From Planctomycetota bacterium (GTDB lineage: Bacteria > Planctomycetota > Phycisphaerae > Phycisphaerales > Phycisphaeraceae), in the NCBI GenBank assembly GCA_021784455.1, contig JAJXSS010000002.1, positions 1 to 33,238 of the forward strand: 33,238 bases of DNA, given 5' to 3'. The notes under the pieces were generated by a model. That model did not search any database. It worked only from the letters and a program-made list of their open reading frames with translations, and was not told where the DNA came from. Of the stretch, positions 1,364-28,262 are shown piece after piece (position 1 is the first letter of the stretch; each line of letters begins with the position of its first letter). A program made the position numbers and the translations under genes.

Positions 1364-1392
1364 GCCGCCTGCGGGCGGGAAAGGAGCCGATC

Positions 1393-1818
1393 ATGCGTTA
1401 TTTGCTTGGAGTCTTGACGTTGGGACTGTTGCTGGCGACGCTGGTTTGGCCGCCAGATGCCCAGGCTGGGCAACACCAGCGTGATCGCACCCGTGGGCGC
1501 GATCGCCAGCGGAGTTGCTGGCTGGCTCAGGATCCCTGGGTGTGCCCGCAGGCCCGTCCGCTGGCCGACCGTCAGCGGGACCGGACGGGGAATCAACAGC
1601 AGGATCGGGACCGTTTGCAGGATCCGCAAGGCGACCCCAATCGCGGTGAAGTATGCCCCAATCCCGACTGTCCCAACCCCGACTGCCCCTGCGATGACTG
1701 CCCCAACCCCGACTGCCCACGTTCGCAGGGCGTTTACGCCGGTACCGCCGCCTGCCCCATGACCTGCACGCACGACCAGCGTCGGGATCGGCGGCGCGAT
1801 GGCAGTTGCCGCCAGTGA
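1393..1818 (+). CDS. Secreted Cys-rich protein with PNPDC repeats, unknown function
   Basis: I do not recognise a family for this 141-residue protein. It starts with a convincing signal peptide (MRYLLGVLTLGLLLATLVW, likely cleaved after AQA-G), so it should be exported. The mature part opens with a Gln/Arg/Asp-rich, very hydrophilic stretch (about residues 26-85). Then comes a strict five-residue repeat, PNPDC-PNPDC-PCDDC-PNPDC (about 89-108), and a second Cys-containing basic tail. Regularly spaced Cys and Asp suggest metal binding or disulfide cross-linking, but no known motif fits. AAGGAG lies seven bases before the ATG at 1393, so the longer ORF start at 1357 is rejected. The gene diverges from the sigma factor operon and ends at a strong terminator, so it is probably a single-gene transcript. 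Confidence 0.65.
   Translation: MRYLLGVLTLGLLLATLVWPPDAQAGQHQRDRTRGRDRQRSCWLAQDPWVCPQARPLADRQRDRTGNQQQDRDRLQDPQGDPNRGEVCPNPDCPNPDCPCDDCPNPDCPRSQGVYAGTAACPMTCTHDQRRDRRRDGSCRQ
1657..1716 (+). repeat. Four tandem 15-base coding repeats
   Basis: Four in-frame 15-base units of the type CCCAACCCCGACTGC encode PNPDC, PNPDC, PCDDC and PNPDC. The third unit has diverged in the middle. Near identity of units two and four at the DNA level suggests recent duplication or slippage within the gene. Confidence 0.85.
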
Positions 1819-3112: not shown

Positions 3113-3260
3113 TTGCGCGGCGTGGCGACCCATCGGCCGCTAATTCGAGTATGAGTCACCAGATGGTATGCTTGCCGTAGGGATTGCCACCGAAAGCCGG
3201 ATGGGCGACAATTGCCGGGCGGTGCGGTTATTGGGGCGTCCCGGCACAAATCTGGTCAGG

Positions 3261-4181
3261 ATGCGACGGGCAATGAGAATCAGAGAAAGACTGTTTCTGG
3301 TCGCGGGCCTGGTCGTTGTGTGCCTCGTGCCGAACCGCCTGTGGGCGGATGCGGGGAAGGTGGCGACTTCCGCCCCGACGGTGACGCGCTATGAGGCCGT
3401 GGCCGAAGCGCGCGAAGACCGGCGTTTGGGCTTTACCGTACCGGGCAAGGTGGCTCACATCCCGGTCAAGGAAGGCCAGCATGTGAAGGCCGGACAGGTT
3501 CTGATGGAGCTGGATGACCGGCAGGGGGTTCTGGCGGTGCAACTGGCGCAACTGGTGGCCCAAAGCCATCTGGAGGTGGAAGCTCAGGAGCAGAGCCTGG
3601 CCATGGCGCAATTGGAGGAGAAACGGCTGGCGCAACTGCTCAAGCAGTCGGCCGCCGCCCCCATCGAAGTGGAGCGGGCCAAGATTCGGGCCAAGGTGGA
3701 GGCGATCCGACTGGCCAAGACGAAGGAAGACGAGCAGGAGGCCCAGATCAAGGCCGCCCAGGCCGAGGCCCTGCACGAGCAGTATGTGTGCAAGGCGCCG
3801 TGTGACGGGGTCGTGGAGTCCATCGTGGTCAGCGAAGGGGAACTGGTCGAGGCCCTTAAGCCGGTGCTGCGGCTGGTGGCCACCGATCCCCTGTTGATTC
3901 AGGTCTGGGTGCCCACGCCGGACACCATGCGGCTCAAGCCGGGGGACCCGGCCTGGATCATTCATCCGCTGCTGGGCGAAAACAAGCCCATGCTGGGCCA
4001 CATCACCGCCATTGCCCAGGTGGCCGACAGCCTGGGCAAGCGTCAGGTGCGCATCGAGGTTCCCAATCCGCAAGGCCTGCCGGCCGGGGGCAAGGTCAGC
4101 GTGCAGTTTGTGGCACCGGTTGCGGCCCTCGGCGCGGCGCCGAGGGCCGGGCGGTCCCGGGCCGGGGAGGCTCAGCCATGA
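3261..4181 (+). CDS. Periplasmic adaptor (HlyD/RND-type membrane fusion protein)
   Basis: Adaptors of this type bridge an inner-membrane transporter to an outer-membrane channel. The protein (306 residues from the chosen start) has an N-terminal signal or anchor sequence (LFLVAGLVVVCLVPNRLWADA). Next is the first lipoyl half-motif (GKVAHIPVKEGQHVKAGQVL), then a long Ala/Glu/Gln-rich coiled-coil hairpin (about residues 90-195). The second lipoyl half (CDGVVESIVVSEGELV) and a beta-barrel segment follow. ATG 3261 or 3273 is likelier than 3168 because the membrane anchor follows directly; neither has a strong ribosome binding site. The stop overlaps the start of the next gene (ATGA). It is the first gene of the four-gene export operon, and no clear promoter is visible upstream. 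It lacks a C-terminal membrane-proximal domain of full length, so it is shorter than typical RND adaptors. Confidence 0.85.
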   Translation: MRRAMRIRERLFLVAGLVVVCLVPNRLWADAGKVATSAPTVTRYEAVAEAREDRRLGFTVPGKVAHIPVKEGQHVKAGQVLMELDDRQGVLAVQLAQLVAQSHLEVEAQEQSLAMAQLEEKRLAQLLKQSAAAPIEVERAKIRAKVEAIRLAKTKEDEQEAQIKAAQAEALHEQYVCKAPCDGVVESIVVSEGELVEALKPVLRLVATDPLLIQVWVPTPDTMRLKPGDPAWIIHPLLGENKPMLGHITAIAQVADSLGKRQVRIEVPNPQGLPAGGKVSVQFVAPVAALGAAPRAGRSRAGEAQP

Positions 4182-6082
4182 CTCGTTTGCGAGCTGCGCC
4201 CAGCCGCCAGCCCCGGGCCTGGGAGGAACTGATCACCCAAGTGACCGCGGCGCCCGACCGGCCCACGGCCCTGCGTGGCATTCTGGAACTGCAGTGCCGG
4301 ATTGTCGCGGCGCAGTATGGCCTGTTCTGGGAGCCCGGGCCGGAAGGGGCGCCGGTGGCGACGATTTCCTGGCCGATGGCCGACGGCAGCACGGCCCTGG
4401 CCGAGCCCGTGCTGAAGATGCTGCAGCAGGCGGCCCGGACCGCCCTGGAGCGCGGGACCAGCCAGGTGCTGCGGGTGGAGCCGGCCGAAGGCAGCGGCCC
4501 GATGTCCAGCGACACCTATGTGTTCGTTACGGCGCTGCGGGCCGAGGGCCAGTGCGCGGCGGTGGTGACGGTGGTGGCCGAGGTGCGTGACACGCAGGTG
4601 ATCACGATAACCACGCCGCAGCGGGAGATTGCGGCCAGCCTGTATGAGAACGTGCTGGCGCGGCAGCGGCAGCAGTCGGCCGAGCTGGAGGCCCAGCGTG
4701 TGCGCCAGGCCATGGCGCTCTTGGCGGTGGTGCAGGACGGGCGGGGCTTTTCGGGATCGTGTCTGAACCTGGTCAATGAACTGGCGCGGTCGCTTAAGGC
4801 CGAGCGGGTGAGCCTGGGGTGGATCCGCGGCCGGAATCTGAAACTCAAGGCGGTCAGTGACAGCGAAGAGGTCAAGCACAAGGGCGAGCAGGCAGCGCTC
4901 CTGGAAATGGCGATGGCTGAGTGCCTGGACCAGCAGCAGCCCATCATGTGCCCGCTGCCCGAAAGCGCGGAACCGGCCCTGGCCCATGCGGTGGTCTACG
5001 GGCACCGGCGGCTGATCGAGGGGCAGAGCCAGAAACAGGTGGTTTCGGTGCCTCTGCGGCACGGGGAAGAATGGGTGGGCGTGCTGACGATCGAGCGGTG
5101 CGGCGACGCTCTGGATGCCGGCGATGTGCAGCGCCTGCAACTGATCGCGGATGTGATTGCTCCGCAACTGGCCGACCGCCGGGCCAGCGACCGCTGGCTG
5201 GGGGCCCAGGCGTGGGAATCATGCAAATGGACGGCGGGCAAGCTGGTGGGCCCCAAGCACGTGGGGTGGAAGCTGGCCGGGGCGGCCGTCCTGGTGGCGG
5301 TGCTGTACGTGCTGCTGGCCACCTGGCCATTCCGGGTGACGGCCTCCTTCCGACTCGAGGCGATGCAGCGGCAGGTGGTGCCGGCGCCCTTCCGCAACAA
5401 GCTGGATGAATTGCTGGTTCATCCGGATGACGTGGTACACAAGGGCCAGGTGCTGGCCAGGCTGGACACGACGGATCTGGCCATCCAACTGGCCGGGGCC
5501 CAGAAGCAACTGGAAGTGGCCCGCATCCAGCGTGACCAGGCTCTGGGGGATCCGAGCAAGCATGCGGAGGCGGAACTGGCCCAGGCCCAGGCCGATGAGT
5601 ACCAGGCCCAGGTGGACCTGCTGCAATACCAGATCCGCCAGGCGACCATCCGCAGCCCGGTGGACGGCGTGGTGCTCAACAGCTACTGGGAGCACCGTGT
5701 GGGCAGTGTGGTGGATCAGGATCAGCCCATGTTTGAGGTGGCGCCGCAGGGGGACGTGACGGCGGTGCTACGCGTGAGCGAGGGCGATGTACGCTACCTT
5801 CTGGACCGCGAGGGCCGGATGCGCCGCGGGCTGGTGGGCGAGCTGGCTACGCGCAGCGAGCCGGAGCAGACCTTTCCCATTCACGTGGAGCGGATCGTGC
5901 CCCTGGCCCAGCCGGTGGACGGCAAGAACGTGTTTGAGGTCTGGTGCGGTCTGGATCGTTCGGCCCCTTGGTTCCGCCCGGGCATGGAAGGGATGGCCAA
6001 GGTGGATGTGGGGCGCGAGCCGCTGTCGTGGATCCTGACGCACAAGATCGTAGATGCCGTACGGCTGTGGATGTGGTGGTGA
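4178..6082 (+). CDS. GAF-GAF-transmembrane-HlyD fusion protein
   Basis: This 634-residue protein joins a cytosolic sensory half to a periplasmic adaptor half. Residues about 15-160 form a degenerate GAF-like domain. A short helical linker follows, and residues about 170-335 look like a second GAF domain (LVNELARSLKAERVSLGWI ... VVSVPLRHGEEWVGVLTIER). One membrane helix (GWKLAGAAVLVAVLYVLLA, about 363-384) leads into a HlyD-like lipoyl/coiled-coil region. That region has half-motifs at VHPDDVVHKGQVLARLD and RSPVDGVVLNSYWEHRVGS and ends in a barrel domain. The geometry suggests that ligand or redox binding in the cytosol could gate a periplasmic adaptor. The ATG overlaps the previous stop. Domain order is visible; the gating role is inference. 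No kinase or cyclase domain is present. Confidence 0.85.
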   Translation: MTRLRAAPSRQPRAWEELITQVTAAPDRPTALRGILELQCRIVAAQYGLFWEPGPEGAPVATISWPMADGSTALAEPVLKMLQQAARTALERGTSQVLRVEPAEGSGPMSSDTYVFVTALRAEGQCAAVVTVVAEVRDTQVITITTPQREIAASLYENVLARQRQQSAELEAQRVRQAMALLAVVQDGRGFSGSCLNLVNELARSLKAERVSLGWIRGRNLKLKAVSDSEEVKHKGEQAALLEMAMAECLDQQQPIMCPLPESAEPALAHAVVYGHRRLIEGQSQKQVVSVPLRHGEEWVGVLTIERCGDALDAGDVQRLQLIADVIAPQLADRRASDRWLGAQAWESCKWTAGKLVGPKHVGWKLAGAAVLVAVLYVLLATWPFRVTASFRLEAMQRQVVPAPFRNKLDELLVHPDDVVHKGQVLARLDTTDLAIQLAGAQKQLEVARIQRDQALGDPSKHAEAELAQAQADEYQAQVDLLQYQIRQATIRSPVDGVVLNSYWEHRVGSVVDQDQPMFEVAPQGDVTAVLRVSEGDVRYLLDREGRMRRGLVGELATRSEPEQTFPIHVERIVPLAQPVDGKNVFEVWCGLDRSAPWFRPGMEGMAKVDVGREPLSWILTHKIVDAVRLWMWW

Positions 6083-6179: not shown

Positions 6180-8342
6180 ATGGATCGGCCGACATTCAGC
6201 GAATCCTGGAGCCGCGTCAGCCGCCTGACCCCCACCCTGCGCCCGCAGGTGCAGGTGCGGCGGCGGAGCTTGTGCAGGCAGCGCTGGTACGTGCTGCACG
6301 AACCAGTCAGCCAGCAGTTTTTCCGGCTCAATCCGGTGGCCTACCACTTGGTGGGGCTGCTGGACGGCCACCGCATCGTGGACGATGCCTGGCGTCTGAC
6401 CCTGGAACGCTACGGAGATGATGCCCCCACCCAGCCGGAGGTGGTGGGTTTGCTGGGGCAGCTCAACCAGGCCAATCTGCTGCGGGTAGACCTGCCGGTG
6501 GACGCCGAGCCCCTGTTGCGCCGCTCGGGGGAACAGCGGGCGCGGCGCTGGGCGGGGCAGGCGATGAGCATTCTGTTTCTACAGGTGCCGCTCCTGGATC
6601 CCGACCCATTTCTGAGCCGCCTGCTGCCGCTGATGCGGCCGCTGCTGTCGGTGGTGGGGCTGATCCTGTGGGCGGTCTGGGTCACGGTGTGCGCGGTCCT
6701 GTTCCTGCCCCACCTGGGCACGTTCATCCACGACAGCGGCAGCATTCTGGCCCCGGCCAACTGGGGCTGGGTGATGGTGTTCTTCATCCTCATCAAGCTG
6801 GTCCATGAGACGGGGCACGGGCTGGTGTGCAAGCGTCTGGGGGGCAACGTGCACGAGGCGGGCATCATGCTGCTGGTGCTGTTTCCGTGCCCGTACGTGG
6901 ATACGACCAGTGCCTGGGCCTTCGAAAGCCGCTTCCAGCGGGTGCTGGTGGGGGCGGCGGGCATGATGTTCGAGCTGACGATTGCCGGGGGGGCGGCCCT
7001 GGTATGGCTGCACGCCGATCCGGGTACCACGGTGCGGCAGGTGGCCCACAACATCGTGCTGGTGGCCTCGGTGGCGACGGTGATCTTCAACGCCAACCCG
7101 CTGATGCGCTTCGACGGATACTTCATCCTCAGCGACCTGCTGGAAGTCCCCAACCTTTACGACCGCTCGATGCAGCACCTCAAATGGCTGGGGCAGCGTT
7201 ACGCCTTTGGCATGACCGCGGCCCCGCCGGTGGCCACGGACCGCGGCGAACGGCGCATCCTGCTGGTCTATGGGGTTCTGGCCGCCATCTACCGCGTGGT
7301 GGTCATGGCGGGCATCGCCATGCTGATCGCCGTGCGGTTCTTCACCATCGGTCTGGCCCTGGCCATCTGGACGGTGGGGGCGTGGCTGTTGTTCCCGCTG
7401 GGGAAGTTCGTGCACTGGCTGGCCACCAGCCCGGCCCTGCACCGCCAGCGCAACCGGGCGGTGCTGGTCAGCGTGGCCACGGCGCTTGCGCTGCTGCTGG
7501 CCATCGGCCTGGTGCCGGCCCCGCAGTACCAGCGGACCGTGGGCGTGGTCGAGGCCCGGCAGCGGGCGGATGTGGCCATCCAGAGCGACGGTTTCGTGCA
7601 GGAGGTCAAGGCGGAGGTGGGCGACGAGGTTCGCCAGGGGCAGGTGCTGCTGGTATGCGATAACCCCATCCTGCGGGCCCAGCGGCGGCAACTGGTCGCC
7701 CAGATCAAGGGTCTGCAGTTGGAGGAGACCTACGCCCTGCGCAATCCGGCCGATCTGGCCGTGGCCCAGGCCAAACACCGGGCCTTGCAGCAGGCCCTGG
7801 ATGATGCCAACGAGCGTATTGCGGACCTGGTGGTGCGCAGCCCGCTGGCGGGCCGGCTGGCCGGGCCGCCCCTGGCCCCGCTGCTGGGCCGCTACGTCAA
7901 GCGCGGCCATGTGGTGGCCCAGGTGGAGGATCTGCGGTCGCTGCGCGTCACGGCCCTGGTGGATCAGGCCCAGAACGCGCTGGGTTTTTTCAACAGCATC
8001 CGGGCCGTGGAATTGCGGGCCCCGGGCGATGTGGGCGTGGACCTGCCCAGCCGGGTGCTGCAGACGTTTGATTCCGGGCGAACGCAACTGCCCCACCCGG
8101 CGCTGGGGGCTCTGGACGGCGGGCCCGTGGCCACGGACCCGCACGATCCCAAGGGCATGACGGCGCTGCGCCCCCAGTTCGAGATCTGGCTGGCCGTGCC
8201 GCCGCCCCGGACCGCCGCGGATCCCCCGTTTCTGCCGGGCGAGCGGGTGTACGTGCGTTTCACGCTGGCTCAGCGGCGTCCGCTGCTGTGGCAGTGGATT
8301 CATCGGTTCCGCCAGATCTTCCGCGAGCCGTGGGAGACGTGA
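6180..8342 (+). CDS. PqqD-like (RRE) - M50 site-2 metalloprotease - HlyD fusion
   Basis: This 720-residue membrane protein has three parts. Residues about 30-105 resemble a PqqD-type winged helix (WYVLHEPVSQQFFRLNP ... VAYHLVGLLDGHRIVDDAW), the fold that binds peptide leaders in RiPP systems. Residues about 130-440 form a multi-pass M50 core with an intact zinc motif HETGH (209-213) and the partner motif NPLMRFDGY (306-314, Asp312 as third ligand), so it should be active. From about 447 comes a HlyD-like region (RADVAIQSDGFVQEVKAEVG ... VVRSPLAGRLAG) after the last membrane helix. Similar proteins are called putative peptide zinc metalloproteases. The ATG at 6180 has only a weak binding site and lies just after the palindromic repeat. 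Its neighbours are the adaptor genes upstream and a SecA-like ATPase five bases downstream. The substrate is unknown, and no radical SAM enzyme or obvious precursor peptide is in the window. Confidence 0.88.
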   Translation: MDRPTFSESWSRVSRLTPTLRPQVQVRRRSLCRQRWYVLHEPVSQQFFRLNPVAYHLVGLLDGHRIVDDAWRLTLERYGDDAPTQPEVVGLLGQLNQANLLRVDLPVDAEPLLRRSGEQRARRWAGQAMSILFLQVPLLDPDPFLSRLLPLMRPLLSVVGLILWAVWVTVCAVLFLPHLGTFIHDSGSILAPANWGWVMVFFILIKLVHETGHGLVCKRLGGNVHEAGIMLLVLFPCPYVDTTSAWAFESRFQRVLVGAAGMMFELTIAGGAALVWLHADPGTTVRQVAHNIVLVASVATVIFNANPLMRFDGYFILSDLLEVPNLYDRSMQHLKWLGQRYAFGMTAAPPVATDRGERRILLVYGVLAAIYRVVVMAGIAMLIAVRFFTIGLALAIWTVGAWLLFPLGKFVHWLATSPALHRQRNRAVLVSVATALALLLAIGLVPAPQYQRTVGVVEARQRADVAIQSDGFVQEVKAEVGDEVRQGQVLLVCDNPILRAQRRQLVAQIKGLQLEETYALRNPADLAVAQAKHRALQQALDDANERIADLVVRSPLAGRLAGPPLAPLLGRYVKRGHVVAQVEDLRSLRVTALVDQAQNALGFFNSIRAVELRAPGDVGVDLPSRVLQTFDSGRTQLPHPALGALDGGPVATDPHDPKGMTALRPQFEIWLAVPPPRTAADPPFLPGERVYVRFTLAQRRPLLWQWIHRFRQIFREPWET

Positions 8343-8347
8343 CACCC

Positions 8348-10417
8348 ATGGCCAGCGCCCCGATCCAGTCCGATCTGGCTCTTTACTCGATGCTGCGCAC
8401 CCGGCGGCGGCGGGTGGAGATGCCGCGTGGCCTGGATGCCATGGCCAACCGCTGGCTGGCGCGGCTCAAGCACATCCGTCTCAACGTCCGGCAACTGAAG
8501 GCCCAGGCCCAGGCCATTGTGGCCCTGGAATCCGCGTGGGCCGAGCGGACGGAAGCGCAGTTGGAGGAGCGTCTGGAGGAGATCCGCACCGTTTTCGCCC
8601 GGCGGCGCCAGACCCCCGAGCACGTGCGGCAGGGTTTTGCCGCGGTGCGCGAGGTTGCCTGGCGCACCACGGGGGAACGGCCGTTCCCGGTGCAGATCAT
8701 GGGGGCCCTGGGGCTGTATTACGGGCAGATCGTGGAGATGGCCACGGGCGAGGGCAAGACCCTGACCGGGGCGCTGGCGGCGACGGTGCTGGCCTGGCGG
8801 CGTCGGCCGGTACACGTGGTGACGGTGAACGACTACCTGGCTCAGCGCGATGCCGACAGCCGCAACGTCATTTACCGCCGCTGCGGGCTGGCCTGCGGGG
8901 CCATCGTGGCCGACGCCCCGCCGCCGGCCCGGGCGGCCGTGTACCGCCTGCCCGTGGTGTACGCCACGGCCAAGGAACTAATGGCCGACTGGCTGCGCGA
9001 CCAGTTGCGCCTGGGGCGGATCGCCGATCCGGTCTCGACGCGCTGGGGCGACCGGCAGATCTGGCGCGGCGGGCGGGACCAGGCCTCCCTCCTCGAGCAG
9101 GTGCTGGTGCCGGGCCTGGGGGCAGCCATCGTGGACGAGATCGATGCCATCCTGATTGACGAGGCGGTGACACCCCTGATCATCGCCCAGGAGCGCGGCG
9201 AAGACCCGCAGCGCGACATCTATCGCCGGGCCCAGGAACTGGCCCGGAAACTGCAGCCGTTCAAGCACTTCACGCTGCGCGGCGTGGAGCGCCAGGCGGA
9301 CCTGACCGACCCCGGCCGGGACATGCTGGCGGCCCTGATCAGCCGCGAGGACCACGCGGTCTGGCACGCGCCGCGGCGCGCCGAGGAACTGGTGTCGCAG
9401 GCCCTGGCGGCCCAGCACTGCTATCACCTGGGTGAGCACTACCAGATCCTGGACGGCAAGGTGGTCATCGTGGACGAATACACCGGCCGGTTCATGGCCG
9501 ACCGGCAGTGGCAGAACGGCCTGCATCAGGCGGTGGAGGCCAAGGAGGACCTGTCGGTGACGGCCGACCGCGACACAGTGGCCAGCATCAGCTTCCAGCG
9601 CTTCTTCCGCCAGTATCCGCACCTGACGGGCATGACCGGCACGGCGGCCGATGCCCGGGGGGAAATGGAGCGCACCTATGGCCTGCCGGTGCGGGTGATT
9701 CCGACCAACCGGCCGGTGCGGCGCATCTACCGCCCGGTGCGCCTGTTCGCCCGGCAGCCGGAGAAGTGGCAGGAGGTGGCCCGGCACATTGCCCAGGTAC
9801 ATGCGACCGGCCAGCCGATTCTCGTGGGCACCCGTTCGGTGGCGGCCTCGGAATTGATCAGCGGCCTGCTGAGTGAGCGCGGCCTGGCGTACCAGGTGCT
9901 CAATGCCGTCCACCACAAGGCCGAGGCCCAGATCATCAGCACGGCCGGACAGCGCGGCATGATCACGGTGGCCACCAACATGGCCGGCCGCGGCACAGAC
10001 ATCAAGCTGGCCCCGGGCATCGCCGAGCTGGGGGGGCTGCACGTGATCCTGACCGAGCGGCACACGGCCCACCGCATTGATCGCCAGCTCATCGGCCGCT
10101 GCGGCCGCCAGGGTGATCCGGGGCTGGTGCAGGTGTTCGCCAGTCTGGAAGATGACCTGGTGGTCAAGTACACGCCCCGGCTGGCGGCGATCTTGAGGCG
10201 CTGGCTGGCCTGGCGCCAGGGCTCGGCCCGCCCGCCGGCCGGCCCCGGCGAGGCGTCCGCCCCAGACCCCGCCGGGTCGCCCAAGCCCCCCCGATCCTCG
10301 ACCGCAATCCTGCGGCTGTTCGATCTGGCCCAGTGGCTGGCCACGCGGCGGGCGTTCCAAAGCCGCCTGCTGGTGATCCGGCACGATTACGAGCTGGATA
10401 AGTCGCTGCCCTCCTAG
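8348..10417 (+). CDS. SecA-like preprotein translocase ATPase, C-terminally truncated
   Basis: From ATG 8348 the protein has 689 residues, against roughly 800-950 for housekeeping SecA. The motor is intact: Walker A MATGEGKT (131-138), Walker B VDEIDAILIDEA (262-273), VDEYTGRFMADRQWQNGLHQ, SFQRFFRQYPHLTGMTGTA, ATNMAGRGTDIKL and the arginine-finger region RIDRQLIGRCGRQGDPG (576-592). After SLEDDLVVKY it ends quickly with a Pro-rich linker and a short helix. That helix resembles the start of the helical scaffold domain. The two-helix finger, helical wing and C-terminal zinc site appear to be absent. It is therefore a specialised SecA2-type paralog rather than the housekeeping enzyme. It starts five bases after the M50 stop, so it belongs to the export operon; the ORF-track start at 8288 overlaps M50 and is less likely. 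It may energise export of a dedicated substrate or act on it as an unfoldase. Confidence 0.9.
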   Translation: MASAPIQSDLALYSMLRTRRRRVEMPRGLDAMANRWLARLKHIRLNVRQLKAQAQAIVALESAWAERTEAQLEERLEEIRTVFARRRQTPEHVRQGFAAVREVAWRTTGERPFPVQIMGALGLYYGQIVEMATGEGKTLTGALAATVLAWRRRPVHVVTVNDYLAQRDADSRNVIYRRCGLACGAIVADAPPPARAAVYRLPVVYATAKELMADWLRDQLRLGRIADPVSTRWGDRQIWRGGRDQASLLEQVLVPGLGAAIVDEIDAILIDEAVTPLIIAQERGEDPQRDIYRRAQELARKLQPFKHFTLRGVERQADLTDPGRDMLAALISREDHAVWHAPRRAEELVSQALAAQHCYHLGEHYQILDGKVVIVDEYTGRFMADRQWQNGLHQAVEAKEDLSVTADRDTVASISFQRFFRQYPHLTGMTGTAADARGEMERTYGLPVRVIPTNRPVRRIYRPVRLFARQPEKWQEVARHIAQVHATGQPILVGTRSVAASELISGLLSERGLAYQVLNAVHHKAEAQIISTAGQRGMITVATNMAGRGTDIKLAPGIAELGGLHVILTERHTAHRIDRQLIGRCGRQGDPGLVQVFASLEDDLVVKYTPRLAAILRRWLAWRQGSARPPAGPGEASAPDPAGSPKPPRSSTAILRLFDLAQWLATRRAFQSRLLVIRHDYELDKSLPS

Positions 10418-19543: not shown

Positions 19544-21877
19544 TCAGGCCGGATCCGAGTTCGGAGTCTCCAGGGGAATCAGCAGCACAGCCGTTGTGCC
19601 CTGGCCTACCTGGCTGCGCAACTCCACCCGTCCGCCGTGGGCGGCGGCCAGCAACTGGGCCTTGGGCAGCCCCATCCCCGGCTGGCGGCCAGCGGCCTTG
19701 CTGCTGAAAAACGGGTCCATGGCATGGGCCAGCGTATGGCTGTCCATCCCCTGGCCGTCGTCGCTGATTTCCAGTACCAGAATGGCCCCACCAGCCTCCA
19801 ACCGGGCGCTGAGGCGTACCGGATTATGCGGCTGGGATCCCAGGGCGTTGTGTACCAGTTCGGCCACGGCGGTCCGCAGTTGGCCGGCATCCACGGGCAC
19901 CGTCAGGGGTGCGGGCTGGACGCTCACCTGCACGGCCACGGGCACCGGCCCCGGCGTGAATCGCCCCTGGGCCTCTTTGACTGCTTCCTCCAGCAGCGGG
20001 CGGAGGTTCTGCGGCCGGCGCTGGGCCTGCGGGGTTTCGGCGCGCAGACGCATAAGCGAGATCATCTCGGACAGGCGGTGGGCCTGTTCGGTGATGGTGC
20101 GGGCCGCCTGCTGTTCCTTGCTGTCGCGCGGCAGGATCTGGGCCAGGAGCTGGGCCCGGCCGGAGATCACCGCCAGCGGATTGTTCATTTCGTGGGCGGC
20201 TCCGGCCGCCATCTCGCCCAGCCGGGCCAGGGATTCGGATTGCAGCAGGCGATCCTGAGCTTCCGCCAGGGCGCTGTTGGCCTGGGCCAGTTGTTCGCCC
20301 AGGCGCCGGGCCCCGTCGTATTGCCCGGCCGCGGCAATGGCTGCGCCCCAACTGTGGGTGAGGGCCTGCAACTGGGTCCAGGGAGGCAGATTCGGCCGGT
20401 CGTGGATGAGCAGGGCCGCCGTGCCCCAGCCCGAGCCCAAGGGCAGGATGCGCAACTGGCGCAGATCGGGCGCCTGGGGCAGGCAGTCGGCCAGGATGGG
20501 CATGATGCCCATGAGATTGAGCGAGGCGGGTTGGGCGGCGTCCAGACGCGACAGGTCGGGGCAGGTGCTGGGCGGCGGGATGAACTGGCTGTGGGTCGGC
20601 CGGCCCTCCGCGTTGTACTGGCAGACCAGCCACTGGTCCCGGGCGGAGGCCTGGTACACCATCGCGTAGTACCCCGGTCCCAGCACGGAGGTGGCGCTGA
20701 CCACGGCCTGGCTCAGCACATCTTCGACGCTGCGGCCCGGAAGAGCCGCGCCATGAAAGGCAACGATGGCATCCAGAAGCTGCGTCTGCCGCTGGCCCAG
20801 GCGGCCGCGCCGCTCCAGGGCCATGTTCAGCCGGCCCAGCATCTGGTTGGCCTGCTGGATGGACTGGAGGAACAGCTCGCGCGAGGGTTGCTCGTCCAGG
20901 CCCAGGGTTCGGCAGCGCGCTTCCAGCAGGGTGTGCAGGCCGTCGCCGATGCGGTTGGAGGCATCGGCCGGCAGCTCCAGCGCCCGGGCCAAGGCACCTT
21001 CCTCCTGCGGAAAGCTGAAATTGCCGCTGTAACCCAGATGCATGCGCCGGGCCACCAGATCGGCCAGGCTGATCAGACCCACCATGCGCCGGTGTTCGAG
21101 TTTGGGCAGAAGTTCGTAGGGGCAGCCGTGCAGCCAGATGCAGTCCTGGATCAGGTGGGGCAGGCACCACTGTTCGGCCAGGCGTTTGCCGGCCGTATGG
21201 TGGTCAATGCCGATGATGCGCCGCTCGAATTCGGCGATGTTGCCCTGGTTCAGGGCCACCAGTTCGACCACGCGGCCGAAGCTCTTGGGCAGCACGAAGT
21301 CCAGGGCCAGTTTGCCGATGTCGTGCAGCAGGCCACAAACGAATGCTTCGTCGGGATTGAGCTGGTGGCGCGGGTCCAGTTTGGCCAGTTGCTCGGCCGC
21401 CAGGGCCGTGGCCAGACAGTGCCGCCAGAACGCCGGGCGGTCCAGCTCCAGGTCCGTGCCGGGATGCCCCGGCGCGACGCCTGCGCCCGTGGCGTCCGGT
21501 TGCGGCTCGGTGCTTGCGACTTCCGGCCGGGGGTCGGACCGGAACATCTCGAACACCTTGATGGACAGCACCGCGTTGCGCACGGCGGTGAAGCCCAGCA
21601 GCACCACGGCCTTGTCCAGGGTGACGGCCTCCTCGCGCAGGCCCAGGTCGGCCCGCCGGCTGATGCTCAGGATGCGGCTGGTCAGGGCGGGGTCGCAGCG
21701 CAGGACCTCGACGACCTGGCTGGCTTCCGATTGTTCATCGCTGGTCAGGGCCAGCAGACGCATGGCCACGGCCGGCAGCGTCGGCAGACCGTCGATCTGG
21801 CGCAGGATCAGCTCGATGCGCCGCGTCTTGGCCGGATCGGCCGGGGCCAGCACGGGATTCATGGGCAGGGTCGTCAT
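19544..21877 (-). CDS. HDOD-GAF hybrid sensor histidine kinase
   Basis: This 777-residue soluble protein begins with an HDOD domain (about residues 15-300). It includes LPTLPAVAMRLLAL and the HD-type motif CGLLHDIGKLALD, with a second pair at GIDHHTAGK. A GAF-like region occupies about 370-530. The kinase core has the phospho-acceptor His in GAAHEMNNPLAVISGRAQLL (about 555). Its ATP domain contains VAELVHNALGS, ISDDGQGMD and GMGLPKAQLLAAAHGG. The final G box is slightly unusual, with MGLPKAQ in place of TGLGLA. HDOD domains are common signalling modules of uncertain biochemistry. The start has no clear ribosome binding site; an alternative is the Met at residue 6. It lies 119 bases downstream of the HTH-receiver gene and 138 bases upstream of the pseudo-receiver gene, so the three probably act together. 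Confidence 0.9.
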   Translation of the reverse strand: MTTLPMNPVLAPADPAKTRRIELILRQIDGLPTLPAVAMRLLALTSDEQSEASQVVEVLRCDPALTSRILSISRRADLGLREEAVTLDKAVVLLGFTAVRNAVLSIKVFEMFRSDPRPEVASTEPQPDATGAGVAPGHPGTDLELDRPAFWRHCLATALAAEQLAKLDPRHQLNPDEAFVCGLLHDIGKLALDFVLPKSFGRVVELVALNQGNIAEFERRIIGIDHHTAGKRLAEQWCLPHLIQDCIWLHGCPYELLPKLEHRRMVGLISLADLVARRMHLGYSGNFSFPQEEGALARALELPADASNRIGDGLHTLLEARCRTLGLDEQPSRELFLQSIQQANQMLGRLNMALERRGRLGQRQTQLLDAIVAFHGAALPGRSVEDVLSQAVVSATSVLGPGYYAMVYQASARDQWLVCQYNAEGRPTHSQFIPPPSTCPDLSRLDAAQPASLNLMGIMPILADCLPQAPDLRQLRILPLGSGWGTAALLIHDRPNLPPWTQLQALTHSWGAAIAAAGQYDGARRLGEQLAQANSALAEAQDRLLQSESLARLGEMAAGAAHEMNNPLAVISGRAQLLAQILPRDSKEQQAARTITEQAHRLSEMISLMRLRAETPQAQRRPQNLRPLLEEAVKEAQGRFTPGPVPVAVQVSVQPAPLTVPVDAGQLRTAVAELVHNALGSQPHNPVRLSARLEAGGAILVLEISDDGQGMDSHTLAHAMDPFFSSKAAGRQPGMGLPKAQLLAAAHGGRVELRSQVGQGTTAVLLIPLETPNSDPA

Positions 21878-23032: not shown

Positions 23033-23082
23033 CCGCAGCACAACGGGTTTGGATGGTCACGCCTAACAGAGGAGAAATGGCA

Positions 23083-23574
23083 ATGAGCAAGGCACGCAAG
23101 GGTTTCACGCTGGTCGAAATTCTGATCGTGGTGGTGATTTTGGGCATTTTGGCGGCAATCGTGATTCCTCAGTTCACGAATGCCAGCGAAAGCGCCCGGG
23201 CTTCCAGCCTGATTTCACAGCTCCAGAGCATCCGCAGCCAGCTCGAGCTGTATCAGGTGCAGCACAACGGCACCTACCCTGACCTGAGCACCGACTGGAC
23301 GCCCATGACCGAATACACTGAAATCGACGGTACGGTGCATGCCACCAAGCCGGCCAACAACAGCCCGGTGGTGTACGGGCCCTACCTGCAACAGGCCCCG
23401 GTGAACCCCTTCGAGAACAGCTCGACGGTCAGCCAGGCCGACCCGTTGCCGGCGGGTGTGGCGGGTACGGGCTGGGTGTATGACAACACCAACGGCCAGG
23501 TCAAGGGAGTAATCGCGGCCACCAAGGCCACCGAAGTGAACCTGACGAACACCAACGACATCGCCACCTACTAA
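23083..23574 (+). CDS. Major type IV pilin / GspG-like pseudopilin
   Basis: This 163-residue prepilin has a six-residue basic leader, MSKARKG, and the classic cleavage site G-FTLVE with Glu at +5. The hydrophobic assembly helix ILIVVVILGILAAIVIPQF follows. The globular part contains LQSIRSQLELYQVQHNGTYP, as in GspG proteins, and ends in an Asn/Thr-rich tail. AGAGGAG precedes two in-frame ATGs; 23083 gives an 8-base spacing and a normal short leader, so 23053 and 23077 are rejected. A strong terminator follows directly, so most transcripts should end here, which suits a highly expressed subunit. It opens the pilus/secretion cluster. Whether it forms a pilus or a secretion pseudopilus cannot be decided without the missing ATPase genes. 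Confidence 0.93.
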   Translation: MSKARKGFTLVEILIVVVILGILAAIVIPQFTNASESARASSLISQLQSIRSQLELYQVQHNGTYPDLSTDWTPMTEYTEIDGTVHATKPANNSPVVYGPYLQQAPVNPFENSSTVSQADPLPAGVAGTGWVYDNTNGQVKGVIAATKATEVNLTNTNDIATY

Positions 23575-23599
23575 GCGGCAAGCGTTGGTCAGCAACTTC

Positions 23600-23635
23600 A
23601 GGCCACTCCGCTCTAACGACCGGAGTGGCCTTTTT
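23600..23635 (+). terminator. Rho-independent terminator after the pilin gene
   Basis: GGCCACTCCG (23601-23610) pairs perfectly with CGGAGTGGCC (23621-23630), with a 10-base loop, and is followed by TTTTT. It lies 26 bases after the pilin stop and only 11 bases before the next ORF. Confidence 0.9.
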
Positions 23636-23646
23636 CAAGCCCGCCG

Positions 23647-24366
23647 ATGACACAGTGCCGATGGCGGCGGGCCGAAGCGCCAGGCACGGAAAGGCTCACC
23701 CCGGTGCGGACGCCGCGCTCCATTTTGGACGCCGAAACGGGCGAGGGGGGCTCGCCGCCCTTGCTCTCGCCGGTGTCCGTTCAAGCCCCGTCCGCCGGGG
23801 CGATCCCCTCGGGCCGGCGGCCGGTGGGCCAGGCCCCGGTTGAAATCGAGGAGCCCGGGCCCGGACCGCGTCACCGCTCCGGCGTGCTGGAAATCCTGAC
23901 CGTCGTGGCGGTCATGGGCGCCCTGGCGGCCCTGGTGGTGCCGCGGGCCATCCTGGCCGCCGAAGCCCCCCACGACCGCGCCTTGAAACAGGATGTCACG
24001 CACCTGCGCGACCAGATTCTCATTTACCGCGCGGAACACCACGGCGTGGCCCCGGGCTACCTCAATGGCGACCCCACGCAACCGCTCTCCCTGGATGCCT
24101 TCACGGCCCAGATGACCCAGTACACCGACGATCTGGGGCGGGTCTCCCCGGTGAAAGATGCCGCCCACCACCTGGGGCCTTACCTGGCCCGCGTCCCCGT
24201 CAACAGCATCAACGGCAGCGGGGAAATCCGCTTCCTGGGCCGTTCCGCGACGTTTCCCGACCAGCCGGTCGGCGCGGAAGGCTGGTTGTACCAGCCCTCC
24301 ACGGGCATCCTTGCGGCCAACGTGACCGGCCACGATGCGGCCGGCACCGCGTACTTCGACTATTAG
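23647..24366 (+). CDS. Atypical pseudopilin with long leader and degenerate cleavage site
   Basis: The ORF encodes 239 residues. Residues about 75-105 contain a pilin-type helix, LEILTVVAVMGALAALVVPR. The preceding motif is RHRSGVLE rather than G-FTLVE; if Glu is set at +5, the residue at -1 is Arg instead of Gly. About 75 Pro/Gly-rich residues precede it, far longer than a normal leader. The C-terminal part resembles the major pilin (GPYLARVPVNSINGSGE against GPYLQQAPVNPFENSS, then GWLYQPSTGILA against GWVYDNTNGQVK), so it is a genuine paralog. No ribosome binding site precedes ATG 23647. GTG 23704 has AAGG upstream and is an alternative. The helix may be uncleaved, which would keep the protein in the membrane. 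Confidence 0.65.
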   Translation: MTQCRWRRAEAPGTERLTPVRTPRSILDAETGEGGSPPLLSPVSVQAPSAGAIPSGRRPVGQAPVEIEEPGPGPRHRSGVLEILTVVAVMGALAALVVPRAILAAEAPHDRALKQDVTHLRDQILIYRAEHHGVAPGYLNGDPTQPLSLDAFTAQMTQYTDDLGRVSPVKDAAHHLGPYLARVPVNSINGSGEIRFLGRSATFPDQPVGAEGWLYQPSTGILAANVTGHDAAGTAYFDY

Positions 24367-24460
24367 GCCGGCCGGGCCGGCCCCCGCGTCCGGGACCAGA
24401 GATGGTCCCAGCGGCGGGCCAGTCCCCCCGGCTACGCCAAATGTTCGGGCCCGCCCGAAC
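24366..24460 (+). repeat. Three successive inverted repeats
   Basis: GGCCGGCC-G-GGCCGGCC (24366-24382) is both a direct and an inverted repeat. GGGACCA/TGGTCCC (24392-24398, 24403-24409) has a GAGA loop. GTTCGGGC/GCCCGAAC (24443-24450, 24453-24460) has a 2-base centre. All lie between the atypical pseudopilin and the small membrane protein gene, with no T-run after any stem, so RNA structure or processing is likelier than termination. Confidence 0.6.
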
Positions 24461-24479
24461 CTACCTGATGGAGGTCCTT

Positions 24480-24749
24480 ATGCGAAGCCTTACCTACCTG
24501 AATGTGGTTCTGAGTCTCATTGCTGTTCTGTTGACGGCCGTGTTGTGGACGATGTGGTCCAACCCGGCGGTCGACCTGACGGCCTCGGCCCGGGCCCAAG
24601 GGCTGACCGACCCCGGCGCCCAGCGGGCGGCCCAGATCGACCAGCTTAAGAGCATCAATCAGAAGGTCGAAGAACTTACGAGACTGTTCAAGTCCGGCCA
24701 GGCACGGGTGCGGCTGGAAAACGCGCCGGGGGACGACAAAGGCCATTGA
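24480..24749 (+). CDS. Small single-pass membrane protein with coiled coil, unknown
   Basis: I do not recognise a family for this 89-residue protein. It has one N-terminal membrane helix (YLNVVLSLIAVLLTAVLWTM) and a short linker. A predicted coiled-coil segment follows (QIDQLKSINQKVEELTRLF) and then a polar tail. A strong GGAGG five bases before ATG 24480 decides the start; the ORF-track start at 24402 falls among the inverted repeats. It lies 24 bases before the GspH-like gene, inside the pilus cluster. By topology it could be an assembly or alignment factor similar in shape to PilN/PilO, but no sequence evidence supports that. Confidence 0.7.
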   Translation: MRSLTYLNVVLSLIAVLLTAVLWTMWSNPAVDLTASARAQGLTDPGAQRAAQIDQLKSINQKVEELTRLFKSGQARVRLENAPGDDKGH

Positions 24750-24772
24750 ATCGGGGCAAGGGACTTGAGGAT

Positions 24773-25282
24773 ATGAGCAAGCCACGTCGAATCCTGCACC
24801 GGGGTGCCTTCACCTTGGTGGAGGTGCTGATGGTAGTCGCCATCATGGGCATCGCCGCGGCGATGGTGGTGCCGGCCATGCTTCAGGGCAGCACCATGAG
24901 CCTGCAGGCGGCGGCCCGCATGATCGTTTCCGACATGTTGTATGCCCAGAATGATGCCATCGCCCGCCAAGCCAACCGCCGGGTGGTCTTCGACACAGCC
25001 CACAACAGCTACGAACTGACGGATGCCTCCGGCACGCTGCTGGACCCATCCGAGGCCGCCGGGCGGGGCAGCTTTTTGGTGGATTTCAGTACGGACAGCC
25101 GTTTTTCCGGTGTCACGCTCGTCTCGGCCGCCTTTGGCGGTCAGGCCACACTGGAATTCGACCCGCTGGGCACCCCTCTGGTGGGCGGGGCCGTGCAGAT
25201 CAGCGGGGGCGGGCATAAGTACGAGATCGACGTAACCGATATCACCGGCCGGGTCACCATCTGTGACCTGTCGGGGCAGTAA
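24773..25282 (+). CDS. GspH/FimT-like minor pseudopilin
   Basis: The 169-residue protein carries a type III prepilin signal, RGA-FTLVEVLMVVAIMGIAAAM, with Ala instead of Gly at -1, a tolerated variant, and Glu at +5. The globular domain includes ARMIVSDMLYAQNDAIARQANRRVVF, cut here as ARMIVSDMLYAQNDAI and RVVFDT. This matches the GspH/FimT pattern in which an Ala/Arg-rich helix precedes beta strands. ATG 24773 has AAGGGA nine bases upstream; the ORF-track TTG start at 24746 overlaps the previous gene. Minor pseudopilins of this kind sit at the tip of the pilus or pseudopilus and prime its assembly. The PilM gene follows after 28 bases. Confidence 0.88.
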   Translation: MSKPRRILHRGAFTLVEVLMVVAIMGIAAAMVVPAMLQGSTMSLQAAARMIVSDMLYAQNDAIARQANRRVVFDTAHNSYELTDASGTLLDPSEAAGRGSFLVDFSTDSRFSGVTLVSAAFGGQATLEFDPLGTPLVGGAVQISGGGHKYEIDVTDITGRVTICDLSGQ

Positions 25283-25310
25283 ACGCGGACCGAGAAGGGA
25301 GATCCATTCG

Positions 25311-26489
25311 GTGTTTGGAGGCATACTGGCATCCTCACGCACCCCCCTGGGGCTGGACTTCGGGACGCGCAGCGTCCGTCTTCTGCAATTAGGGTGCGGC
25401 AAGCAGGAGTGGGCGGTGGCGGCCGCCGCGGAGGCGGCGCTTCCGGCCGATCTGCCGGCCCAGGGGCCCGATCGCCACACCGCGCTGGTGGAGCTGCTCA
25501 AGGGCCTGTTGGCGCAGGGCGGGTTCCGCGGTCGCAAGGTCGTCAGTTGCCTGCCCTCGGCCTGCGTGCAGTACAAGAGCGTGCGCCTGCCGCGTATGCC
25601 CGACGAAGAAATGCGCACGGCGGTGGAGTGGGAAGCCAAGGAACGCATGCGTCCGGCCCATGCCTCCGCCAATGCCGGGGAGCTGATCGTGCAGTTCTAT
25701 GATGCGGGGGAAGTCCGCCAGGGGGAGGAGGCGCGTCAGGAAATCATCGTAATGGCGGCTGAGGCCAGCGCCGTGACGGAGCATGTCGCGGCGTTGCGTG
25801 CCGCCGGCCTGGTGCCCCTGGCCATCGATGCCGCGCCCAGCGCCCTGGCCCGGGCTCTGGCTCGAACCGGTGCGGCTCTTCCGGGGGCGTCGACCGACAG
25901 CAGCGCCCCGGAAGAGGAGGCTCCCGCCCGCTTCATCCTGGATGTCGGTTTCGGGGTTTCCAAAGTCCTTATCGTGCGCCAGGGGCGCATTGTGTTCTAC
26001 AAGACCATCGAGATCGGTGGGGGCCGCTTCGACCAGACCGTGGCGACCAAGCTGAACCTGCCTCTGGCCGATGCGGCGCATATCCGCAGCAGCCTGCGCC
26101 GGGAAGAACCTGCGGCTGCAAGCCCGCCGCTCTTTGGTTCCGACCGCCGGGAAAGCGTGGAACGAGCCGTCTTCGAGGCCCTGCGCCCCCTGGTGGAAGA
26201 ACTGGTCCGCGAAGTGGGCCTGTGCCTGCGCTATTACGGGGTGACGTTTCGTGGGCGGCGTCCGGAACAGGTCCTGCTGGCGGGGGGCGAAGCCGGTGAA
26301 CCCAGTCTGATCAAAGCCCTGACCCAGGAGGCCAGCCTGCAGGTGGCGCCGGCCCAGCCGCTGGTGGCGATTGATCCGGCTCTGCTGCTGAACCAAGGCG
26401 TGCCGGCCCAGAGCTTGGCGGCCTGGTCGGTGGCCACCGGGCTCTGTCTGCGTCCGCCAGCCCGTCAGGCGCAACGGAGGGCCGCATGA
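25311..26489 (+). CDS. pilM: PilM-like actin-fold assembly protein
   Basis: PilM is a cytosolic actin/FtsA-like ATP-binding protein that binds the N-terminus of PilN and links it to the assembly motor. The 392-residue protein opens with LGLDFGTRSVRLLQL, the phosphate-1 motif. It has the family block VVSCLPSACVQYKSVRLPRM with EMRTAVEWEAKERM, the second phosphate motif FILDVGFGVSKVLIV, and the C-terminal VLLAGGEAGEPSL. The start is a GTG at 25311 with GGGAG about ten bases upstream; the ORF-track start lies inside the GspH-like gene. Its stop overlaps the PilN-like ATG by four bases. A Pro/Ala-rich insert (about residues 190-205) and a basic tail are extra. Confidence 0.92.
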   Translation: MFGGILASSRTPLGLDFGTRSVRLLQLGCGKQEWAVAAAAEAALPADLPAQGPDRHTALVELLKGLLAQGGFRGRKVVSCLPSACVQYKSVRLPRMPDEEMRTAVEWEAKERMRPAHASANAGELIVQFYDAGEVRQGEEARQEIIVMAAEASAVTEHVAALRAAGLVPLAIDAAPSALARALARTGAALPGASTDSSAPEEEAPARFILDVGFGVSKVLIVRQGRIVFYKTIEIGGGRFDQTVATKLNLPLADAAHIRSSLRREEPAAASPPLFGSDRRESVERAVFEALRPLVEELVREVGLCLRYYGVTFRGRRPEQVLLAGGEAGEPSLIKALTQEASLQVAPAQPLVAIDPALLLNQGVPAQSLAAWSVATGLCLRPPARQAQRRAA

Positions 26490-27133
26490 GCGAGATTGAT
26501 TTTCTACCTCCGGAATTCCTGAAGCGCCAGGGTCACCGCCGACGCGTGGTCCGTCAGGGCGTGCTGCTGGGGGTGGCGTGGCTGCTGCTGGTGGGCTGGT
26601 TTGCGGCCCGCCAGGGCAACCTGATGCGCTTGAATCAGTACGCCCGGAGCCTGGAGGCCCAGGCCTCGGCTCTGCACCTGCAGGCTCAGCAGTTGGCCGA
26701 TCTACAGCGACAGAAAGCCCTTCTGCAGAACCGTCTGGCGGTGGATCGCGAACTGCGGCCGGCGGCGTCTTACACGCAGATCGTCAGCGCGCTGTCGCGC
26801 GTTATGCCACCCGCCCTGACCCTGCTGGAACTGAGGCTGACCGACAGCCATGGCCCGGCTCCGACCGCGGCCCACGGGGGCAGCGGCCCCCCGCGCCGGG
26901 GCCCGCCTCTGGTGCATCTGGCCCTGGATGGGGTGGCTCCCAACGATGGGGATGTTGCCGACTTGGTAGGTCGGGCCACGGATTTCCCGCTGTTTACCTC
27001 GGTCAAGCTCCTGTACTGCCGATCCCAGAAGATGGGCGATCTGACGGTGCGTAATTTCCGGATGGAGATGGATGTGCCGTTGGACTGCCGGTACCTGCCG
27101 CGCACGGCGGAGGGGGTGGCCCGTGCGCATTGA
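26486..27133 (+). CDS. PilN-like inner-membrane assembly protein
   Basis: The 215-residue protein starts MSEIDFLPPEFLKRQ, the PilN-type conserved N-terminal peptide that docks into PilM. One membrane helix (GVLLGVAWLLLVGWFAA, about 26-42), a coiled coil (about 45-90) and a periplasmic ferredoxin-like region (SALSRVMPPALTLLELRL and later) follow. A Gly/Pro/His-rich insert occurs near residue 115-140. The order after PilM and the four-base overlap agree with the pilMNOPQ arrangement. It is expected to pair with the PilO-like protein in the periplasm. The fold is inferred from topology and context rather than strong sequence motifs. Confidence 0.85.
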   Translation: MSEIDFLPPEFLKRQGHRRRVVRQGVLLGVAWLLLVGWFAARQGNLMRLNQYARSLEAQASALHLQAQQLADLQRQKALLQNRLAVDRELRPAASYTQIVSALSRVMPPALTLLELRLTDSHGPAPTAAHGGSGPPRRGPPLVHLALDGVAPNDGDVADLVGRATDFPLFTSVKLLYCRSQKMGDLTVRNFRMEMDVPLDCRYLPRTAEGVARAH

Positions 27134-27683
27134 ACGGGATCAGGCCCGTGTGGCGGTGTTGATCTGCGCAGGGGCCGTCGTGTTCGCCGTGGGGGCCTGG
27201 TGGCCCCAGTACCGCCGCGAGCAGGCCCTGGGCCGGCGCATTGCCCTCGCCCAGCAGGAGATTCAGAACGATGATGGGCCTAGCGCCGATCTGGCCGGGC
27301 TGGCCCGCCAGGTGGCCGATCTGCAGTCCACGCTGGATGCCTCGGCCCAGCACCTGTCCCAGCCCGATGAACTGGCCGAGGCCCTCAAGTACCTCAGCGC
27401 CCGCATGGAGGCCTTGCACCTGACCGATCAGCAGATTGTGACGGGGAGCCTGAGGTCCGAACCGCACTACGCGATTCTGCCGCTAACTCTGCAATTTCGC
27501 GCCAGCTTTCCCAGCGCGTTTGCGCTGGTCAAAGAGATCGAGTCCATGCCGCGTCTGGCCCGGGTGGTCCGTCTGAGCCTGGCCAACGATGCCTCGCGCA
27601 CGGATCGGCCGGTCGCGGTCTCGCTGGAAATGGAACTGTTTTTCACCCCGACCCCGACCGCCCGCCAGGAGGGCAAGCCATGA
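27123..27683 (+). CDS. PilO-like inner-membrane assembly protein
   Basis: The 186-residue protein begins at GTG 27123 (VRIERDQARVAVLI), with GGAGGGG seven bases upstream. It overlaps the PilN-like gene by 11 bases in a different frame. One membrane helix (about 9-25) precedes a coiled coil (RRIALAQQEIQ ... VADLQSTLDASAQHLSQ) and a beta-rich domain. That domain contains the PilO-type block ILPLTLQFRASFPSAFALVK followed by IESMPRLARVVRLSL, which is strongly reminiscent of PilO/GspM. It should form the inner-membrane platform with the PilN-like protein. The ORF-track start at 27072 would overlap PilN much further and has no support. Confidence 0.88.
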   Translation: MRIERDQARVAVLICAGAVVFAVGAWWPQYRREQALGRRIALAQQEIQNDDGPSADLAGLARQVADLQSTLDASAQHLSQPDELAEALKYLSARMEALHLTDQQIVTGSLRSEPHYAILPLTLQFRASFPSAFALVKEIESMPRLARVVRLSLANDASRTDRPVAVSLEMELFFTPTPTARQEGKP

Positions 27684-28216
27684 GTCCGACCATCCGCCGG
27701 GCCTGGGCCTCATTCAAGGCTGAACAGCGCAAGATGGCCATCGCGGCCGTGTTGGTGGTGGTAGCGGTCGTGTTGTGGGTGCACCTGTACTGGCACGCGA
27801 CGCCGGCGCCGGCCCAGGCTCAGACCCTCAGCCCGCCGCCGAGCGCCAGCGCCCAGGGCTCGGCCCGCTTATCGGACCGCCCGGTCGTCCGCGTCAATCT
27901 GACGCAGGATTTGGGGCGCGACCTCTTCGCCTTTGCCGATTCGCACTACGCCACGCAGAAACCGGGGGCACAATTGGCGGGGGCGGCAAAGTCACCCGCG
28001 TCGACGGTCGATAACTCCCAACAAGCCCAGATCGTGACGGAAGCCGCCCGCAGCCTGAAGCTTCAGACCACGATTGTGGGGGCCCACCCCCGGGCCGTGA
28101 TCAACGGCCAACTGGTGGGCCCGGGGGACAAGATCGCGGGCTTTACAGTTCGTCGGATTCTCGACCGCAAGGTCATTGTGGAAATGGATGGAGTCCAGGT
28201 TCGGTTGGAAATGTGA
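27680..28216 (+). CDS. PilP/GspC/GspB-like periplasmic connector
   Basis: This 178-residue protein has an N-terminal membrane helix (MAIAAVLVVVAVVLWVHLYW), a Pro/Ala/Ser-rich flexible linker, and a small C-terminal beta domain. That domain contains PRAVINGQLVGPGDKIAGF and VRRILDRKVIVEMDGVQVRL, the pattern of the secretin-binding HR domain in GspC, PilP and GspB-type proteins. It should connect the inner-membrane platform to the secretin. The ATG overlaps the PilO-like stop by four bases, and the secretin gene starts 46 bases downstream. PilP is usually a lipoprotein; no lipobox is seen, so the anchoring is more GspC-like. Confidence 0.82.
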   Translation: MSPTIRRAWASFKAEQRKMAIAAVLVVVAVVLWVHLYWHATPAPAQAQTLSPPPSASAQGSARLSDRPVVRVNLTQDLGRDLFAFADSHYATQKPGAQLAGAAKSPASTVDNSQQAQIVTEAARSLKLQTTIVGAHPRAVINGQLVGPGDKIAGFTVRRILDRKVIVEMDGVQVRLEM

Positions 28217-28262
28217 ACTTCAAGGAAAACCGGGAGGCACGCGCTCAGCGCAGGAGTCCGGT

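Follow-up and report, generated by a model that had tools for sequence, protein, structure and literature searches.

The protein encoded at 6180..8342 joins a PqqD domain, an M50 protease and an HlyD part in a single chain, and we regard it, with a probability of about 0.68, as the core component, located in the inner membrane, of a pathway dedicated to exporting and maturing large LEPR-XLL surface proteins. It lies within a four-gene row or operon (HlyD, GAF-HlyD, PqqD-M50-HlyD, SecA-like ATPase) in the window, i.e., the whole stretch of 33,238 nucleotides that was analysed, which is one contig of a Phycisphaerae (Planctomycetota) MAG whose genome is 71% complete. What was established by computation is how the domains and genes are arranged, how protease and leader co-occur and are linked, and what the leader motif looks like. 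The following features were identified:

3168..4181 (+): HlyD/RND-type membrane-fusion protein, 337 aa as listed; HlyD_3 E 1.8e-16
4178..6082 (+): GAF-HlyD fusion, 634 aa; GAF E 1.5e-9, HlyD_3 E 4e-9
6180..8342 (+): PqqD(RRE)-M50-HlyD, 720 aa; predicted leader-reading intramembrane protease and export adaptor
6252..6482 (+): PqqD/RRE winged-helix domain, aa 25-101; Pfam, structure-profile match, secondary structure of the model
6804..6818 (+): HETGH zinc-protease motif, aa 209-213; invariance in 46 homologs
7095..7121 (+): NPLMRFDGY motif, aa 306-314, with the third zinc ligand D312; invariance in 46 homologs
7518..8279 (+): HlyD/MFP periplasmic part, about aa 447-700; HlyD_D23 match, Foldseek
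8348..10417 (+): SecA-like ATPase, 689 aa; SecA_DEAD E 1.5e-86, P-loop_SecA, SecA_PP_bind

Pfam placed PqqD (PF05402) at aa 37-101 (E 3.7e-7, 30.8 bits, cut-off 23.4), HlyD_D23 at aa 452-598 (E 2.9e-7) and Peptidase_M50 at aa 199-275, the last with an E of 6.5e-5 that is under the family's own cut-off. The closest curated family is NCBIfam NF041824, the daptide intramembrane metalloprotease (E 1.6e-50); the protein, scoring 172 bits against an equivalog cut-off of 300, is not a member of it, and because the alignment spans aa 19-401 it confirms the PqqD and M50 parts as one unit. The PqqD match was found in 40 and the M50 match in 43 of 46 homologs, and H209, E210, H213 and D312 were unchanged throughout these, as were N306, L308, D312 and Y314 of the NPLMRFDGY motif. 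The HExxH motif and the downstream D ligand lie within membrane helices, as in M50 site-2 proteases. The profile of the N-terminal domain matched the solved PqqD structure 3g2b (E 3.8e-5) and, weakly, the lasso-peptide RRE domains TfuB1 (6jx3) and TbiB1 (5v1u). In the AlphaFold2 model (mean pLDDT 85.7), aa 25-97 adopt the beta-beta-beta-alpha-alpha-alpha layout of an RRE winged helix, and the C-terminal third resembles MacA, MexA and AcrA (Foldseek, E about 1e-13). The M50 core (~aa 140-445) has about seven membrane helices according to the model and hydropathy, suggesting, because of this number, that the PqqD domain is cytoplasmic and the HlyD part periplasmic. The original prediction had read the gene as a PqqD-M50-HlyD fusion and had staked this on the profile and fold of the N terminus; the PqqD match and the winged helix are both present, and the fusion is borne out by Pfam, NF041824, the invariant residues and the model. 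Close homologs are carried by Phycisphaerae MAGs, and a search for phage homologs found none.

Of 45 related loci, 43 had the GAF-HlyD family, 29 the family of the HlyD at 3168..4181, 27 the SecA-like family and 12 DUF3467. The GAF-HlyD fusion shows, by hydropathy, a cytoplasmic GAF domain, a single membrane helix (aa 362-380) and a periplasmic HlyD part. The HlyD protein scored above the cut-off of RND_mfp (TIGR01730, 126.5 bits), and its real start is probably the ATG at 3273, which is followed by a signal-peptide-like hydrophobic stretch (hydropathy). The remainder of the window is apparently unrelated: an ECF sigma factor, an AraC regulator, an epimerase-like protein, kinases, and a type IV pilus/type II secretion-like cluster at 23053-30416 (+) with N-methyl pilin-like proteins, PilM, PilO, a T2SSB-like protein and a secretin. 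A gsp cluster also lies downstream of the M50 gene in Variovorax, but this shared presence is probably due to chance. As further observations, reading by eye suggested that 1391-1818 (+) encodes a small secreted protein containing a Cys-Pro-rich repeat (NPDCPNPDCPCDDCPNPDCP), and a histidine kinase is fused to an HDOD-domain protein at 19547-21877 (-). At locus L071, 13014-16573 (-), five tandem paralogs of ~200 aa combine a signal peptide with a short C-terminal tail of hydrophobic residues plus arginine, reminiscent of sorting-signal proteins.

At some related loci, large genes start with a charged stretch and then LEPRxLLS, which is the LEPR-XLL domain (NF012209), and the co-occurrence of leader and protease across genomes was therefore analysed. 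Full-length PqqD-M50-HlyD was found in 50 of 61 relatives. NF012209 matched in 35 of these 50 but in none of the 11 protease-negative relatives. A true absence of the leader from the other 15 was considered and rejected in favour of limited model sensitivity, since a broader leader profile (A3; 16 columns, with some of its leaders coming from the window's class) matched in 14 of the 15, N-terminally as inspection of the loci showed, and still in 0 of 11 protease-negative relatives. Together, a leader was present in 49/50 protease-positive vs. 0/11 protease-negative relatives (Fisher p 3e-11; the genomes compared here and below are related and not phylogenetically independent). In a phylum-wide sample of 294 genomes, the protease occurred in 34 of 35 leader-positive and 33 of 259 leader-negative genomes (p 1e-24), and, among genomes outside the window's class, which contributed no rows to the leader profile, in 21 of 22 leader-positive ones (p 5e-16). 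We are highly confident that the protease is associated with leader proteins. The 33 protease-positive genomes of the phylum sample without a detected leader mostly carry a more distant homolog, and this subfamily may therefore read another leader or do a different job.

The leader motif, derived from 63 leaders, is [LF]-E-x-L-E-P-R-x-L-L-S-A, in which the invariance of positions 5 (E) and 7 (R) and of the hydrophobic positions 1 and 4 is partly by construction, these having been demanded by the search pattern. The part upstream of the motif is 42 residues long (median) and carries a net charge of +7. The leaders have no signal-peptide-like hydrophobic core: the median best 15-residue hydropathy is 0.82, and only 1 of the 63 reaches at least 1.6. 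A Pfam search with the motif gave no match. In daptides, the leader ELExMEAP places L(-7) and M(-4) in two hydrophobic pockets of the RRE, and leader removal has been assigned to an RRE-dependent intramembrane peptidase (PMC10036551). Both kinds of leader share the pattern hydrophobic-E-x-hydrophobic-E, and this likeness, together with NF041824 as best match, provides by analogy an independent line of argument, short of proof, that the PqqD domain may recognize the LEPR-XLL leader. The NF012209 proteins are proposed as substrates, the family label itself covering the leader sequence only. Giant LEPR-XLL proteins elsewhere can have RTX C-termini (PMC10868602), so that a C-terminal export signal is possible.

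No leader gene and no TolC gene occur in the window. The original prediction had suspected that the substrate may be encoded elsewhere, and candidates do exist: at least five leader proteins are encoded on five other contigs of the same genome (C317, 2219 aa; C57, 697; C34, 838; C358, 1047; C7, 1046), four of them above the NF012209 cut-off at the N terminus and the fifth recognized by the leader profile. Partial domain scans of three of them gave CARDB, DUF4347 with CHAP, and PA14. The DUF3467 gene of this genome (C139:17659) does not adjoin a leader gene. In another Phycisphaerae genome (L166, G016:C20), the neighbour of DUF3467 is a giant ORF (about 12,459 aa) with a leader.

Leader and protease genes are also physically linked: 11 leader genes have a protease gene at a distance of at most 15 kb, vs. 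1.3 expected. Plasmids of Alisedimentitalea, Methylosinus, Pseudosulfitobacter, Thalassospira, Ensifer, Mesorhizobium and Pontibrevibacter carry a giant gene immediately upstream of the protease gene. On these alphaproteobacterial plasmids, a leader (e.g., LEPRVLLNAD, FEPRVLLSAD, MEPRVLLSAD) opens each of the seven giant genes whose start was read; the encoded proteins have 4,000-12,700 aa. In Alisedimentitalea (L113 / L119), a giant calcium-binding protein has its start annotated too far downstream, and an in-frame LEPRLLLAAD leader lies upstream of the annotated start. The plasmid clusters comprise the giant protein, DUF3467, GAF-HlyD, PqqD-M50-HlyD, the SecA-like protein, HlyD and TolC, some plasmids holding only part of them. 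The annotated order in Methylosinus is giant - DUF3467 - HlyD - PqqD-M50-HlyD - SecA-like - HlyD - TolC, with the SecA-like ATPase wrongly annotated as a prepilin peptidase, and the Thalassospira cluster has TolC and no adjoining SecA-like gene. Plasmids of Azospirillum and Variovorax show a second type, giant protein - TolC - HlyD - GAF-type HlyD - PqqD-M50-HlyD, again with no SecA-like gene adjoining; their leaders read LEPRFMFDAA (A. lipoferum) and LEARYMFDAA (Variovorax). In the tree, alphaproteobacterial proteins belonging to the first type group together in a single clade (100/100), which falls inside the main group, and those of the Azospirillum/Variovorax type are separate. On a Variovorax plasmid (L155), a tandem-95 repeat giant of about 16,200 aa lies beside TolC-HlyD-HlyD-PqqD-M50-HlyD. 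An E. coli plasmid (L153, 1-7557) encodes giant Ig-like protein - TolC - HlyD - HlyD - M50-HlyD, a cluster without an ATPase gene. Because the Azospirillum, Variovorax and E. coli plasmid clusters have no adjoining SecA-like gene, the SecA-like motor is either not universal or encoded elsewhere.

The SecA-like ATPase of the window shares with SecA/SecA2 the DEAD motor, the preprotein-binding domain, the second motor domain and intact ATPase motifs (the Walker A stretch TGEGKT, GRGTD and RQG, all invariant in 28 SecA-like sequences). Its model corresponds to SecA of the SecA-SecY complex 5eul with a TM of 0.77 (Foldseek). Canonical SecA, however, has SecA_SW (PF07516), which gave no match in any of the four SecA-like proteins scanned (that of the window and those of relatives); the protein stops within the helical scaffold, the model terminating in a single long helix, with neither a wing nor a two-helix finger. 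Among the genomes tested, the SecA-like gene was found in 15 of 15 protease-positive and 0 of 9 protease-negative ones. In the closest relatives it occupies a second locus away from the protease, where DUF3467 frequently accompanies it; at three such loci (L162, L163, L164) a large leader-bearing ORF follows directly. The association thus outlasts physical separation. Adjacency of the SecA-like gene to the protease is confined to part of the tree, close relatives holding it at the second locus. We consider it reasonably probable that the SecA-like protein is the motor of the same export.

Three other roles for PqqD-M50-HlyD deserve discussion. Since M50 proteases are known chiefly as site-2 proteases, and certain homologous clusters hold no dedicated ATPase, the protein might be a leader peptidase only, the LEPR-XLL proteins crossing via Sec or a separate exporter while PqqD-M50-HlyD trims the leader or senses the passage. 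This is unlikely, although it is the most serious of the competing explanations: the protease shares its chain with an export adaptor and adjoins more HlyD genes, and on two plasmids TolC; the leaders have nothing resembling a signal peptide core; and the SecA-like motor co-occurs with the protease.

Far less probable is that PqqD-M50-HlyD strips the leader from a small modified peptide encoded elsewhere and then exports the peptide, as in RiPP maturation. The N-terminal RRE-S2P fusion is indeed shared with the daptide protease (MpaP/DapP, NF041824; PMC10036551), but the 379-position model of the latter has no HlyD part, and daptide substrates are short RiPP precursors accompanied by modifying enzymes, whereas the partners of PqqD-M50-HlyD are large proteins of hundreds to >12,000 aa. 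No oxidative decarboxylase, aminotransferase, methyltransferase or short precursor was found in scans of the window or as a conserved neighbour, nor did the scanned window genes contain any other RiPP-modifying enzyme, in agreement with what the original prediction had noted. The search for small conserved ORFs near homologs that it had proposed yielded no precursor, the sole small conserved ORF being DUF3467, a domain family of 92 positions without precursor layout. With the YydH/LiaK epipeptide protease (NF058609) only the M50 core is common (36 bits vs. a cut-off of 225, the match being confined to this core). Further pointers to protein export rather than peptide modification are the HlyD fusion, the two additional HlyD genes and the SecA-like ATPase, along with TolC in relatives. 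Of the original idea that the protease selects its substrate by the leader, the selection itself is therefore probable, with strong support from genomic context, and the RiPP-like maturation of a small peptide is unsupported. Regulated intramembrane proteolysis, with the site-2 protease signalling for, e.g., the ECF sigma factor at 671-1267 (~5 kb upstream, opposite strand), is the least probable explanation, because over 45 loci the export genes, but not the sigma gene, are kept with the protease and the HlyD and PqqD fusions would be left without a role.

For the proposed export pathway, we infer leader binding, cleavage, a motor role and a route of export as follows. The cytoplasmic PqqD/RRE domain would bind the leader [LF]-E-x-L-E-(P)-R-x-L-L-(S)-(A) of the newly made substrate, and the unfolded chain would be driven by the SecA-like ATPase, with GAF-HlyD and DUF3467 acting as regulatory or chaperone partners. 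The M50 site-2 protease would cleave at or just past the leader, within the membrane, and the fused HlyD domain and the two other HlyD proteins would pass the chain to a TolC-type outer-membrane channel. That PqqD-M50-HlyD binds and cleaves the leader is quite probable. More tentatively, and at close to even odds, the parts may constitute a separate new class of secretion system, in which an RRE reads the leader, a truncated SecA-like protein pushes, an S2P-MFP cuts and TolC passes the chain out.

The building blocks are all known. Type I secretion and tripartite efflux (HlyD/TolC; PMC8277102) use HlyD adaptors and TolC for large exported substrates. HlyD adaptors are present here, the proposed substrates are likewise large, and TolC, though not encoded in the window, is part of the cluster in Methylosinus and Thalassospira. 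However, a SecA-like ATPase and an intramembrane protease replace the ABC transporter, of which none was found among the conserved neighbours or in the annotated plasmid clusters, and the proposed signal is N-terminal. In the literature searched (most subscription journals and bioRxiv fell outside the search), we found no prior description of an RRE-site-2 protease-HlyD fusion, of its tie to LEPR-XLL or of a truncated SecA-like partner, nothing on the function of LEPR-XLL, DUF3467, or PqqD or SecA with M50 and HlyD, and no description of a processing or export machine for NF012209 proteins or of an export route for the giant ones.

In the window's class of Planctomycetota, giant proteins that carry LEPR-XLL at the N terminus are common, and they also occur in Proteobacteria; the system, if our reading is true, would serve such surface proteins in both groups. 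The LEPR-XLL tag would then be a cleavable leader for export, recognized by an RRE domain; RiPP leader recognition would thereby be tied to protein secretion, and RRE reading would extend beyond RiPP peptides. DUF3467 and the truncated SecA-like ATPase would gain a functional context, and the export of proteins of >10,000 residues would become testable in culturable alphaproteobacteria.
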